DNA of 34,423 nt, taken from positions 1 to 34,423 of the forward strand of contig CAINHL010000039.1 of NCBI GenBank assembly GCA_903848885.1. Direction: 5' to 3'. How positions within the stretch are numbered: position 1 is the first letter of the stretch; the number at the start of each line of letters is the position of its first letter. Made by a program: the position numbers and the translations under genes. This DNA is from an uncultured Actinomycetes bacterium (GTDB taxonomy: Bacteria > Actinomycetota > Acidimicrobiia > Acidimicrobiales > RAAP-2). Below the pieces are notes generated by a model. It saw only the letters and a list, made by a program, of their open reading frames with translations. It was not told the origin of the DNA and did no database searches. Shown here piece by piece: positions 21,186 through 25,466 of the stretch.

Positions 21186-22088
21186 TTAGCCCAGTTTCAG
21201 AAATTGCTCGTGTCGAGAGAGTCGTCGACCACCGGAAAGTTCGGTGGCCTGGCACTCGCCCCGGATCACTTCGATGGCCCGTTCCACCTCGGCCGCCGTG
21301 GGTGGGTGGGTGCCGTCGCCCATATCGGCGGTGGTCAAATGTGGTCGCAACCACGCCCGCAGCCGCGCCACCGGCCAGGTGGCCAGTTCACGGCAGTTCA
21401 ACTCGCCGAGACCGAATGCCGCGTCCGGGGACGCCACTTCTTCTAACCACTGACGCTCTCCCGCCATCAGTTCGGCTTGGCGGGCCAGAATCGGCACCAC
21501 GTCGCGGTCGGCCAGCTCGTTTAAAACGGGAACTAGTTGCGCCCGCACGGCGTTGCGTTTGAGTGCCAGGTCGTCGTTGGACTCATCGTGGGCGAAGGGA
21601 CGACCACTGGCTTCGACGTAGGCACGAAGCTCCGATCGGCGCACCCGAAGAAGGGGTTTGGTGGAATCTCCCACCATGGGTGACAGACCTGCCAGTCCGG
21701 CTCCCCGCATCAAGTTCAAGAGTTGGGTTTCGGCCAGATCATCCATGGTGTGACCGGTCAGGGCGTCGGGGGGCAGGACGCCACGACGAGCGGCGCGGGC
21801 CCGGGATTCAAAGTTCCCCTCCCCGTCGAGAACGACATCATGAACGGTGCAGGCCAGAGACAAATCGGCGGCTAAGTGCCGGACCAATTCGGCGTCATGG
21901 CCACTGCGGGGCCGCACGTGATGATCCACGTGGTGGAGGTGGGGAATGAGTCCGGCTTCCACGGCCAGCAGGGTCATTCCCACCGAGTCGGGACCGCCCG
22001 ACACCGCGAGGTTAACCAGACTCCCCGCAGGAGGGAAGAGACACTGAGATAAAAGGTCCGCCACATTGGATACGATACGCCGTGCCAC
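21186..22088 (-). CDS. tilS: tRNA(Ile)-lysidine synthetase
   Basis: 300 aa. PP-loop ATPase that converts C34 of the CAT-anticodon tRNA-Ile to lysidine. Seen: LAVSGGPDSVGM (PP-loop), HHVDHHVRPRSGHDAEL, ALTGHTMDDLAETQLLNLMRG, KPLLRVRRSELRAYVE and HDESNDDLALKRNAVR. A reduced C-terminal domain is usual in actinobacteria. GTG at 22088 has a G-rich AGGGGGC ribosome site about 7 bases upstream; GTG at 22064 is the alternative. First gene of the eleven-gene minus-strand run and divergent from pgeF. Confidence 0.93.
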   Translation of the reverse strand: MARRIVSNVADLLSQCLFPPAGSLVNLAVSGGPDSVGMTLLAVEAGLIPHLHHVDHHVRPRSGHDAELVRHLAADLSLACTVHDVVLDGEGNFESRARAARRGVLPPDALTGHTMDDLAETQLLNLMRGAGLAGLSPMVGDSTKPLLRVRRSELRAYVEASGRPFAHDESNDDLALKRNAVRAQLVPVLNELADRDVVPILARQAELMAGERQWLEEVASPDAAFGLGELNCRELATWPVARLRAWLRPHLTTADMGDGTHPPTAAEVERAIEVIRGECQATELSGGRRLSRHEQFLKLG

Positions 22089-22129: not shown

Positions 22130-22837
22130 GTGTACGTCTTTGATGAGCTCACCGTTCCGGGTCTGGACGTGATTGTGACCGAACGCCTCGGCGGGGTCAG
22201 CTCCGGCCCCTACGACTCGCTCAATTTGGGTCTTCACGTCGGCGACGACGCGGAGAAAGTTCACGAAAACCGGAGCCGCGTGGCTGCGGCCTTGGGGGCG
22301 GAGGAGCTCTGCATCGTCCGACAAGTGCACGGATCGCGGATTCTGCTGGCCGCCGCAACCGATGCCAGTGACCAAGCCGACGCTCTCCTTATTACTAAGG
22401 GTGGACCGGCAGCGGCCATCTTGGTGGCCGACTGCGTTCCCCTCATCGTGATTGATCCCGTCGAACAACGAGCAGTCCTGGTGCACGCCGGTTGGAAGGG
22501 TTTAGCCGCGGGGATTGTGGAGTCCGCTATTCGAGAACTCGGGAACCCCGAACGACTGTTAGTGGCCGTGGGTCCTTCCATTTCCGGTGAGGCCTACCAA
22601 GTCGGACCCGACGTCATTGACGCCCAGGTCCTCTTTCGCGCGTGCGCCACTCCCGATATCGGTGATCGCTGGCGACTGGATCTTCGCCGCGCCACGCTGG
22701 CCATCGTGACGGAGGCGGGAGTGCCTGAAGGGCGAGTGACGATGAGCGCCCAGGTCACCGACGGGGGAGAAAGCTTTTTTTCCGACCGGGCACTACGGCC
22801 ATGTGGTCGCTTCGCTCTCGCGGCACGCTGGACCTAG
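22130..22837 (+). CDS. pgeF: Peptidoglycan editing factor PgeF (YfiH/laccase-domain)
   Basis: 235 aa. PgeF/YfiH proteins act on wrongly built UDP-MurNAc-L-Ser precursors; many also have purine nucleoside phosphorylase activity. The metal-site triad is His67 (VRQVHGSRI), Cys102 (VADCVPLIVID) and His119 (LVHAGWKGLAAGIV). GVSSGPYDSLNLGLHVGD and ISGEAYQVGPDV are also typical. GTG at 22130 has GAGGA 8 bases upstream and is chosen. The frame also offers GTG at 22082, which would overlap the tilS start on the other strand. In many actinobacteria pgeF sits beside ftsZ; here it heads pgeF-murL-murD2. Confidence 0.9.
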   Translation: MYVFDELTVPGLDVIVTERLGGVSSGPYDSLNLGLHVGDDAEKVHENRSRVAAALGAEELCIVRQVHGSRILLAAATDASDQADALLITKGGPAAAILVADCVPLIVIDPVEQRAVLVHAGWKGLAAGIVESAIRELGNPERLLVAVGPSISGEAYQVGPDVIDAQVLFRACATPDIGDRWRLDLRRATLAIVTEAGVPEGRVTMSAQVTDGGESFFSDRALRPCGRFALAARWT

Positions 22838-22867
22838 GCTGAGTACCACTATGGGAGTGGTTCACTA

Positions 22868-24154
22868 ATGCCGAAGCGCGCCGACCTCTTCTCCTACCGC
22901 GAACTGGAAATCAGCGCCGACCGCATGATCGGGCACTACGAACTTGACGGGCGGCGATTCCGCGAGGAAATCATTTTTTCCCTTGACGGTTCCCTCGATA
23001 CCGCAGCTGGCCGGCTGCTGGCCGAACTCTGGTTCCTTCTGGCCGGACTCTCCTATTACAAGGCCGGAGCCGCGTACGTCATTGATTTTGGAGACCACCA
23101 GGTCGGCCCCGCGGCGCGGGCCCTCATGGAAGCGGCCGTGGTCGATGGTCTCGGAGAATTCGCCTTTCGCAACCAGCTCGATCTCCGTGATGTTCTCTAC
23201 ACCGGTGGAACCTCCGGCTCACACGCCCACCCCCACCTCGACCCCACCAAAGTCCTCACCCCGTTTGGTGGAGGGATCGACTCCATCGTGACCGTGGAGT
23301 CCCTTCCCGCAAATATCGGTCAACGACTCTTCGTGGTGAGCCCCGCCAGTGGGAGCTTCGCTCCCCTCGAGGCGGCTGCGGCCGTGACCGGTCGTGGCGT
23401 GGCGCGAGCCACGCGGCAACTCGATCCCGAAATTCTCAAAAAGGACGAAAAAGTTTTCAACGGCCACGTCCCCGTCACCGCCATGGTGACCTTGTTGGCG
23501 GTAATTGCCGCGGTCGCGGAGGGTTGTGGTGGAGTGGTGATGAGTAACGAGCACTCAGCCTCTATCCCCAACGTGGTGCACGAGGGTGGGTCGGTGAATC
23601 ACCAATGGAGCAAGTCGGACGTCGCCGAGCTACTCATTGCCGACGCCGTGGCCGAGAGAATCGGTGCGGAATTCATAGTGGCCAGTGCCCTGCGTGATCG
23701 CAGCGAGTTATGGGTCGCCCAGCGCTTCGCCGCGCTCGGGCAGTATCACGAAAGTTTTCGTTCGTGCAACAAGGCCTTCGCGCAGGAAGTTTCGAACCGC
23801 GCTTCCCATTGGTGCGGGGTATGTGACAAGTGTCTCTTCATTGCGCTGGTGCTCGCACCCTTTATTGAGCGTTCGTCTCTCCGTGAATTTTTAGGATGTG
23901 AGCCCTTGAGCGATCCCCAACTGGTGGGTTCGCTACGCACCCTGGTAGGACTCGGCCACGAGAAGAAGCCTTTCGAATGCGTCGGCGACCCTGACGAATG
24001 CGGAGTGGCTCTGCGGGAAGTGGCCACCATGTCGGAATGGTCAGACGTCCCCGCGCTGGCTGAAATTGCCCATCAACTTCCACGCCACCCCACTCTCGAT
24101 GATGCCTTGACCACCCAAGGAGCCAGCCGTGTCCCGGCCACGTGGATTTTCTGA
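22868..24154 (+). CDS. murL: MurL: UDP-MurNAc-L-Ala-L-Glu epimerase
   Basis: 428 aa, matching the length and motif set I recall for MurL, first shown in Xanthomonas. MurL needs ATP and Mg and inverts the terminal L-Glu of UDP-MurNAc-L-Ala-L-Glu to D-Glu, bypassing MurI. Seen: a PP-loop-like FGGGIDSIVTVESL (GGGIDS 134-139), GVVMSNEHSASIPN (225-234), VNHQWSKSDVAELL (243-256), SCNKAF with Cys300, and WCGVCDKC (Cys316, 319, 322), a possible metal site. The neighbour murD2 overlaps by 26 bases, the expected partner. ATG at 22868 with GGGAGTGG upstream, 30 bases after pgeF. Otherwise it would be called an uncharacterised alpha-hydrolase/PP-loop protein. The pairing with murD2 makes the call strong. 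Confidence 0.88.
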   Translation: MPKRADLFSYRELEISADRMIGHYELDGRRFREEIIFSLDGSLDTAAGRLLAELWFLLAGLSYYKAGAAYVIDFGDHQVGPAARALMEAAVVDGLGEFAFRNQLDLRDVLYTGGTSGSHAHPHLDPTKVLTPFGGGIDSIVTVESLPANIGQRLFVVSPASGSFAPLEAAAAVTGRGVARATRQLDPEILKKDEKVFNGHVPVTAMVTLLAVIAAVAEGCGGVVMSNEHSASIPNVVHEGGSVNHQWSKSDVAELLIADAVAERIGAEFIVASALRDRSELWVAQRFAALGQYHESFRSCNKAFAQEVSNRASHWCGVCDKCLFIALVLAPFIERSSLREFLGCEPLSDPQLVGSLRTLVGLGHEKKPFECVGDPDECGVALREVATMSEWSDVPALAEIAHQLPRHPTLDDALTTQGASRVPATWIF

Positions 24155-25439
24155 TCTCGCCGGACAGCGAGTCGGCATTTGGGGACTCGGGATAGAAGGC
24201 CGCGCCGCCCAGCGAGCCCTGCTCGCGGTCGGTGTCACGCCCGTTCTGGTTGATGACGCTCGCTTAGATGACCCCGACGTCCTCGTGACCACCGAGGGTG
24301 GGCTCGAGGCTCTCGCGACCTGTCAGGTGGTACTCAAGAGCCCCGGTATTTCGAAGTATCGAGATGATGTCGAACAGCTGCGTCACGCAGGAGTGAATGT
24401 CACCTCGGCCCTCGCGGTGTGGCTCGCCGGAACGGACCGATCACGAGTGATTGCGGTGACGGGGACCAAGGGGAAAAGCACGACCACCTCTCTTATTACC
24501 TTCATGCTCGGTACCATCGGTATTCCCGCAGTGAGCGCCGGGAACATCGGCGTGCCCCCGTATGACCCCGACGCTGACCTAGGCGCTCAAATGATCGTTC
24601 TCGAAGTCTCGAGTTTTCAGGCCTGCGACATTCGTGACTCGCCCGCCATCGTCGCAATTACTTCACTCGGCGAGGACCACATCGACTGGCACGGTTCACG
24701 GGAGAATTACCACCGCGACAAACTGTCGCTGACGCACGCTGAGGGCGAACACACGACCCTCCTTGCCAATTCGGCAGAACTGACGCAACGAGAATCTGAA
24801 TTCGGCGGCGAGGTAAGGATTTCCGGTTCGGATGAAGCCAAGCTCGCTACATCGCTCGGTCTCCTCGGAGAACACAACGCCCGGAACGTGAGTCTTGCAC
24901 TTGCCGTGACCTCTCACGTATCGCGCCACAATCTAGAAACTACGCGAGCCGCCGTCGAAGAGAATTGCACTTCCTACTCAGCCCTTCCTGGGAGATTCAG
25001 CCTCGTCTGCGAACGTGACGGTGTGAGCTTCATCGACGATGGCCTGGCGACTAGTCCGCTACCAGTGATTGCGGCACTGCAAATCTGCGGGGACTCACCG
25101 GTTTCGCTCTTGGTCGGTGGTTTTGATCGTGGTGTTGACTACCAAGGGCTTGTCGATGCGATATCGAATCGTTCGGCGAAAACTCAAATTTTTACGTTCG
25201 GGCCAGCGGGAAAAAGAATCGCTGAACTCTGCGAAAGCGGGGACTCATTGAGTTTTGATACCTTCGAAGAAGCCGTGAGAGCCGCATGCGCACGTACCAG
25301 TAGTGGTTTCGTTCTCTTTTCACCTGCCGCACCAAGCTTCGACGAGTACAAAAACTGGTTACAGCGTTCACTACATTTTCGAGATGTGGTATGGAGCCCC
25401 GGGACGGAATTGAACCGTCGACCTGCTCATTACGAGTGA
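24129..25439 (+). CDS. murD2: MurD2: UDP-MurNAc-L-Ala L-glutamate ligase
   Basis: 436 aa Mur ligase of MurD type. N-terminal Rossmann GIWGLGIEG (16-24), P-loop GTKGKST (112-118), GNIG, EVSSFQ, GEDHIDWHGSRENYHRDK (Asp183, His184, and Lys198 in the place of the carbamylated Lys), GEHNARN, and SPAAPSFDEYKNW near the end. It lies beside murL rather than in a dcw cluster, so it is read as MurD2, which adds L-Glu for MurL to epimerise. AAGGAG 6 bases before the GTG supports the start, inside murL. The last 14 residues (423-436) are encoded by the antisense of the tRNA-Thr gene; MurD homology ends just before. The 3' third is visibly more AT-rich (about 45-53% GC in 60-base lines near 25.2 kb) than its neighbours. 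Confidence 0.9.
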   Translation: MSRPRGFSDLAGQRVGIWGLGIEGRAAQRALLAVGVTPVLVDDARLDDPDVLVTTEGGLEALATCQVVLKSPGISKYRDDVEQLRHAGVNVTSALAVWLAGTDRSRVIAVTGTKGKSTTTSLITFMLGTIGIPAVSAGNIGVPPYDPDADLGAQMIVLEVSSFQACDIRDSPAIVAITSLGEDHIDWHGSRENYHRDKLSLTHAEGEHTTLLANSAELTQRESEFGGEVRISGSDEAKLATSLGLLGEHNARNVSLALAVTSHVSRHNLETTRAAVEENCTSYSALPGRFSLVCERDGVSFIDDGLATSPLPVIAALQICGDSPVSLLVGGFDRGVDYQGLVDAISNRSAKTQIFTFGPAGKRIAELCESGDSLSFDTFEEAVRAACARTSSGFVLFSPAAPSFDEYKNWLQRSLHFRDVVWSPGTELNRRPAHYE

Positions 25440-25466
25440 GCTGCTCTGCCGCTGAGCTACCGGGGC
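25395..25466 (-). tRNA. tRNA-Thr(CGT)
   Basis: 72 bases fold as a full cloverleaf: acceptor GCCCCGG/CCGGGGC, D-arm GCTC/GAGC, anticodon stem GCTCA/TGAGC with loop CTCGTAA (anticodon CGT, reading ACG), and T-arm GACGG-TTCAATT-CCGTC. The discriminator is T. CCA is not encoded. Its 3' half lies antisense to the last codons of murD2. Confidence 0.96.

Follow-up and report, generated by a model that had tools for sequence, protein, structure and literature searches.

A pgeF-murL-murD2 operon and the probable supply of D-glutamate for peptidoglycan in an uncultured actinobacterium

How does a bacterium in which no glutamate racemase can be recognised put D-Glu into its cell wall? The question is raised by three tightly packed plus-strand open reading frames, a pgeF, a murL homologue and the gene of a MurD-type ligase, in a 34,423-nucleotide stretch of DNA (the window), contig 39 in a draft assembly of 1.56 Mb (97% complete, 163 contigs). 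The answer offered here, to which as a whole we assign a probability of roughly 0.88, is that L-Glu would be attached to the nucleotide precursor by MurD2 and inverted there by MurL, with PgeF editing the precursors, and that the cell would have, in this operon, its only recognisable means of bringing D-Glu into peptidoglycan.

The operon and its setting

A 30-nt gap separates pgeF from murL, and murL and murD2 overlap by 26 nt, just as the first-pass annotation of this DNA had described them (features are collected in Table 1). The pgeF frame is open from a GTG at 22082, and the GTG at 22130 is an equally possible start. On one side the operon is flanked by a divergent tilS and on the other by convergent tRNA-Thr and holB genes; a scan for promoters and terminators yielded no more matches than did shuffled sequences. 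The final 48 nt of murD2 lie within the tRNA-Thr(CGT) gene (25392-25466, minus strand), and the C-terminal end of the ligase, SPGTELNRRPAHYE, is translated from the antisense of this tRNA. A chance gene neighbourhood is excluded: the synteny comparison across actinobacteria that had been proposed finds the same order in 26 congeners; of the 79 MurL loci in named genomes, 59 include a pgeF, usually immediately upstream.

Table 1. Coordinates of the operon's genes and of the residues discussed in the text
Feature	Position	Strand	Remarks
pgeF (YfiH-type precursor amidase, by family)	22130..22837	+	PF02578 E 6.6e-55; TIGR00726 117.7 bits (cut-off 141)
PgeF catalytic positions	22322..22486	+	alignment to E. 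coli YfiH; roles from PMC8844914
PgeF Q-x-H	22322-22330	+	
PgeF Asp	22379-22381	+	
PgeF Cys	22433-22435	+	
PgeF His	22484-22486	+	
FFSDRALRPCGRF, signature of the murL-linked PgeF group	22775..22813	+	Asp replaces E. coli Tyr227
murL	22868..24154	+	428 aa; NF041275 E 1.9e-80; QueC/QatC-like predicted fold
MurL PP-loop PFGGGIDS (QueC family: SGGxDS)	23261..23284	+	G134, G136, D138, S139 invariant in 47 sequences
MurL C300-x15-C316-x2-C319-x2-C322, likely zinc site	23765..23833	+	four Cys invariant in 47 sequences
murD2, predicted L-Glu-adding MurD-type ligase	24129..25439	+	436 aa; TIGR01087 (murD) 276.6 bits (cut-off 212); single copy
MurD2 stereospecificity positions (E. coli numbering)	24675..25340	+	roles from PMC8788868
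MurD2 D182 kept	24675-24677	+	
MurD2 K319L	25044-25046	+	
MurD2 K348R	25128-25130	+	
MurD2 A414P and L416F	25332-25340	+	

The pathway itself is already known. Xanthomonas oryzae likewise pairs a MurL homologue with a MurD-type ligase (XOO_1319/XOO_1320; PMC8788868) and has neither MurI nor a D-amino-acid transaminase; the enzymes have been assayed in Xanthomonas and in two actinobacteria, Micromonospora and Salinispora (PMC8788868). The window differs from the X. oryzae type in that murL ends inside murD2 and pgeF stands in front; it differs too from Salinispora, Micromonospora and Mangrovihabitans, in which murD2 lies on the opposite strand and pgeF does not adjoin. A further contrast is with other genera of the order, in which MurI makes free D-Glu and a canonical murD sits in the dcw cluster between mraY and ftsW. 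What is new here is the conserved pgeF-murL-murD2 cassette, the matching losses from dcw, the predicted fold of MurL and a group of Asp182-type MurD2 proteins that has apparently gone unassayed so far; we know of no assayed member.

D-Glu supply in this genome and its relatives

The genome yields no match to MurI (TIGR00067) and none to the Asp/Glu racemase superfamily as a whole (PF01177, detected in 10 of 14 control genomes); nor was a D-amino-acid transaminase found, the sole Aminotran_4 (PF01063) protein in the genome being IlvE. Its one murD is that of the window, and neither a second murD nor a second pgeF was found. The gene order of dcw, which lies on contig 78, is ftsI-murE-mraY-ftsW-murG-murC-murB-ftsQ-ftsZ-yggS-sepF: the cluster is without murD (mraY runs into ftsW) and without pgeF (ftsZ runs into yggS). 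MurC, MurE, MurF, Ddl and a MurT-like protein are all present. The first-pass annotation had placed the ligase outside any dcw cluster and had reasoned that, were murI missing, the operon would be the only route to D-Glu for the cell wall: dcw does lie on a different contig, and murI, a D-amino-acid transaminase and a dcw murD, which it had proposed to look for, are absent by these searches. (Gene absences, in this and the other genomes, are results of profile searches on draft assemblies, and absence is not proof. The MurT-like protein, L047:3-875 on contig 93 of this genome, G000, is cut by the contig end and reaches 83 bits where the cut-off is 800; its presence hints at possible amidation of stem-peptide D-Glu in this organism.)

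The MurL of the window has counterparts, among 100 relatives, in 57 of the 60 congeners and in four further genera; TIGR00067 matches nothing in any of the 61 genomes that represent the genus. Counted by genera, MurI is present in 32/35 that are MurL-negative and in 0/5 that are MurL-positive (Fisher p 8.5e-5). In 296 genomes of the class, MurI rises above its cut-off in none of the 30 with MurL and in 167 of the 266 lacking it (Fisher p 1.8e-12, uncorrected for relatedness among genomes), and it is also absent from 30 further MurL genomes reached through named loci. Each of the families f7, f16, f18, f20, f23 and f31 contains both MurL-type and MurI-type genera, so that replacement of murI and dcw murD has probably occurred repeatedly. 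Three MurL-positive genera outside the family of this organism have dcw clusters that lack murD only; seven dcw loci with a canonical MurD retain mraY-murD-ftsW, and most of these genera have ftsZ-pgeF-yggS.

(Some single genomes depart from the pattern. G094, a 98%-complete relative with its dcw in L144, has a canonical dcw murD and, by these profiles, neither MurI nor MurL. G019, a 96%-complete congener with its dcw in L145, lacks MurL, MurI, PgeF and a full MurD, and its dcw is also without murD; its operon probably fell into an assembly gap. G258 combines MurL with a weak, sub-threshold MurI-like match (E 4.4e-7) that is taken to be another protein of the racemase superfamily. A swap of MurI and MurL within one genus, G398 versus G213 and G269, was seen but is given no weight because the G398 assembly is a draft and the contig that bears its MurL measures 4.1 kb.)

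MurL and MurD2

Is the middle protein a MurL? Its match to the profile NF041275 covers residues 45-424 on profile positions 55-437 of 447 and scores 270.5 bits, below the curated equivalog cut-off of 700; the MurL proteins of Salinispora and Micromonospora, orthologues that have been assayed (PMC8788868), also reach just 398-403 bits, which implies that the cut-off fits Xanthomonadales only. The motifs that had drawn attention to the protein, GGGIDS, MSNEHSA, NHQWSKS and WCGVCDKC, are present, with most of their residues invariant in 47 relatives. Membership of the MurL family is supported by sequence comparison on three counts: profile, invariant residues and a partner from the MurD2 clade.

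The AlphaFold2 model (pLDDT 95.6, from an input of 47 natural sequences) predicts a QueC/QatC-like fold with a PP-loop and a cysteine motif. In Foldseek the top match is QatC (E 6.3e-5), with Cap9 in third place; VIA-align gives Z 18.9 for QatC (312 residues), 13.7 for QueC, 13.3 for Cap9 and ~10 for argininosuccinate synthase. By hhalign, MurL aligns to E. coli QueC with E 0.0015 (controls MurD, TilS and YfiH, 0.12-0.31), pairing the cysteine motifs of both, which in QueC is C(x)8CxxCxxC (PMC13329287), and FSGGQDS of QueC with FGGGIDS of MurL, where the first PP-loop Ser of the QueC family is Gly. What is shared with QueC, Cap9 and QatC (PMC13329287, PMC13279940) is the predicted fold, the PP-loop and the C-xn-CxxCxxC motif, whereas identity is 12-15% and the substrate differs; none of the 47 MurL sequences has PF06508 among the families it matches, so MurL is a remote relative of QueC and, by the Pfam test, not a member. 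A sequence search of MurL against solved structures gave no match, and MurL goes unmentioned in the two recent QueC-family papers (PMC13329287, PMC13279940).

With QatC and Cap9 as its best solved-structure matches, might the middle protein be some other QueC/QatC-like enzyme, of defence or nucleobase conjugation for instance, and no epimerase? We judge this highly improbable: PADLOC, like Pfam, finds no match in the protein, whereas the MurL profile does so specifically, its partner is constantly a MurD-type ligase, and MurI is absent. QueC uses ATP to convert a carboxylate (PMC13329287), and the proposal in the literature for MurL is that the Glu alpha-carboxylate is adenylated and AMP released (PMC8788868, PMC5808125), an ATP-to-AMP chemistry that a QueC-like fold fits.

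The ligase belongs to the MurL-linked MurD2 group, which includes the proteins of Salinispora and Micromonospora and is separate from canonical MurD, that of E. coli included (in a quick tree, one branch divides 41 rows from 9, with SH-aLRT 100). The Xanthomonas-like MurL/MurD2 arrangement claimed by the first-pass annotation is supported by the profiles and by this clade. Of the positions that have been mutated in the literature (PMC8788868), 319 is Leu or Ile throughout the MurL-linked rows, whereas the nine canonical rows all have Lys; position 348 is Arg in all MurL-linked rows except one, and is Arg in the window, which shares Arg 348, Pro 414 and Phe 416 with X. oryzae MurD2. Position 182 differs: it is Asp in the window and at most actinobacterial loci, whereas Micromonosporaceae, two loci from proteobacteria and a small number of others have Glu. 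X. oryzae MurD2 has Glu197 at the equivalent place, and E197D changed its stereospecificity (PMC8788868). With K319L and K348R present but Asp182 kept, the residues allow use of L-Glu to be inferred and do not make it certain; from its context, MurD2 here likely uses L-Glu.

The retained Asp182, as in canonical MurD, together with the effect of E197D in X. oryzae (PMC8788868), lends something to a different account, in which MurD2 works as an ordinary MurD or as a relaxed ligase of D-Glu and L-Glu, the cell obtains D-Glu through a racemase that has escaped recognition or from its surroundings, and the only task of MurL is to salvage occasional L-Glu adducts; G094 shows that a canonical murD can occur where MurI is not detectable. 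That account is unlikely in the face of the uniform loss of K319 and nearly uniform replacement of K348 in MurL-linked rows, and of the mutual exclusion of MurL and MurI in the samples.

If, as preferred here, the three proteins act like their characterised counterparts, the sequence of events would be as follows: 1) MurC would produce UDP-MurNAc-L-Ala. 2) PgeF would hydrolyse wrong UDP-MurNAc-aminoacyl precursors (L-Ser in place of L-Ala) before MurD2 commits them. 3) MurD2 would join L-Glu to UDP-MurNAc-L-Ala. 4) MurL, as a QueC/QatC-like PP-loop enzyme, would adenylate the alpha-carboxylate of the attached L-Glu, converting ATP to AMP; adenylation would acidify the alpha carbon, so that the Glu residue could be inverted. 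Both the adenylation-epimerisation steps and any functional coupling of PgeF with MurL are putative.

PgeF and the conserved cassette

PgeF is well over the cut-off of PF02578 and retains the equivalents of Q69, H71, D89, C107, H124, R228 and R235 in alignment with E. coli YfiH. It shares these catalytic residues with YfiH and differs in its murL-linked clade and in having Asp in place of Tyr227, which in the E. coli enzyme stacks on MurNAc (PMC8844914): the equivalent residue is Asp in 66 of 75 murL-linked rows and His, Trp, Phe or Tyr in 13 dcw rows. All murL-linked copies, with two unlinked ones from MurL genomes, form one clade of the PgeF tree (99/98), and 13 Acidimicrobiia-type dcw PgeF proteins form another (99/86). 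In 30 genomes examined there is at most one PgeF gene each (in one case in two pieces, at the ends of two contigs), and in three of them none was found; separate clades and a single PgeF per genome together indicate that the murL-linked PgeF replaced the dcw copy.

Does PgeF do more here than accompany its neighbours? YfiH cleaves UDP-MurNAc-L-Ser best and dipeptide precursors about a thousand-fold less well (PMC8844914), which makes ordinary L-Ser editing the default reading. The linkage occurs in Acidimicrobiia, Streptosporangiaceae, Nocardiopsaceae and Nocardioides, with variations (pgeF is downstream in Nocardioides lianchengensis and on the opposite strand in L119), and has changed at least five times on the MurL tree: it is clustered, neither universal nor fixed. 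In Salinispora mooreana (G127, L124) and Mangrovihabitans (G129, L127), MurL is present and no PgeF was detected genome-wide, so the pathway can do without PgeF. These changes, the MurL genomes without PgeF, and the many genomes, some of them MurL-positive, in which pgeF sits in dcw, would all be understood if pgeF had moved with murL and murD2 simply as a fellow gene of the cytoplasmic precursor pathway, with no coupling beyond L-Ser editing. We give this slightly better than an even chance; it is compatible with the main explanation, denying the coupling only. It sits less comfortably with the breadth of the linkage, and with a murL-linked PgeF that forms its own clade, has displaced the dcw copy and has changed a MurNAc-contact residue. 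From linkage, dedicated clade and intact YfiH catalytic residues we infer that PgeF and MurL may make up one functional unit. Of what the first-pass annotation made of PgeF, its position in front of murL and murD2 has stood, with conserved linkage added; the single unit that both makes and edits is a suggestion of that linkage. The literature searched holds no paper pairing MurL or MurD2 with PgeF or YfiH.

The predicted fold provides a testable catalytic mechanism for MurL, which publications of 2018 and 2021 describe as without known conserved domains, and the large Asp182 group of MurD2 proteins is a place to test the published stereospecificity residues. The association with pgeF suggests a shared evolutionary history for precursor editing and the L-Glu route. 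The MurL/MurD2 route is extended to a whole family of Acidimicrobiia-type actinobacteria, most of them uncultured, and further.
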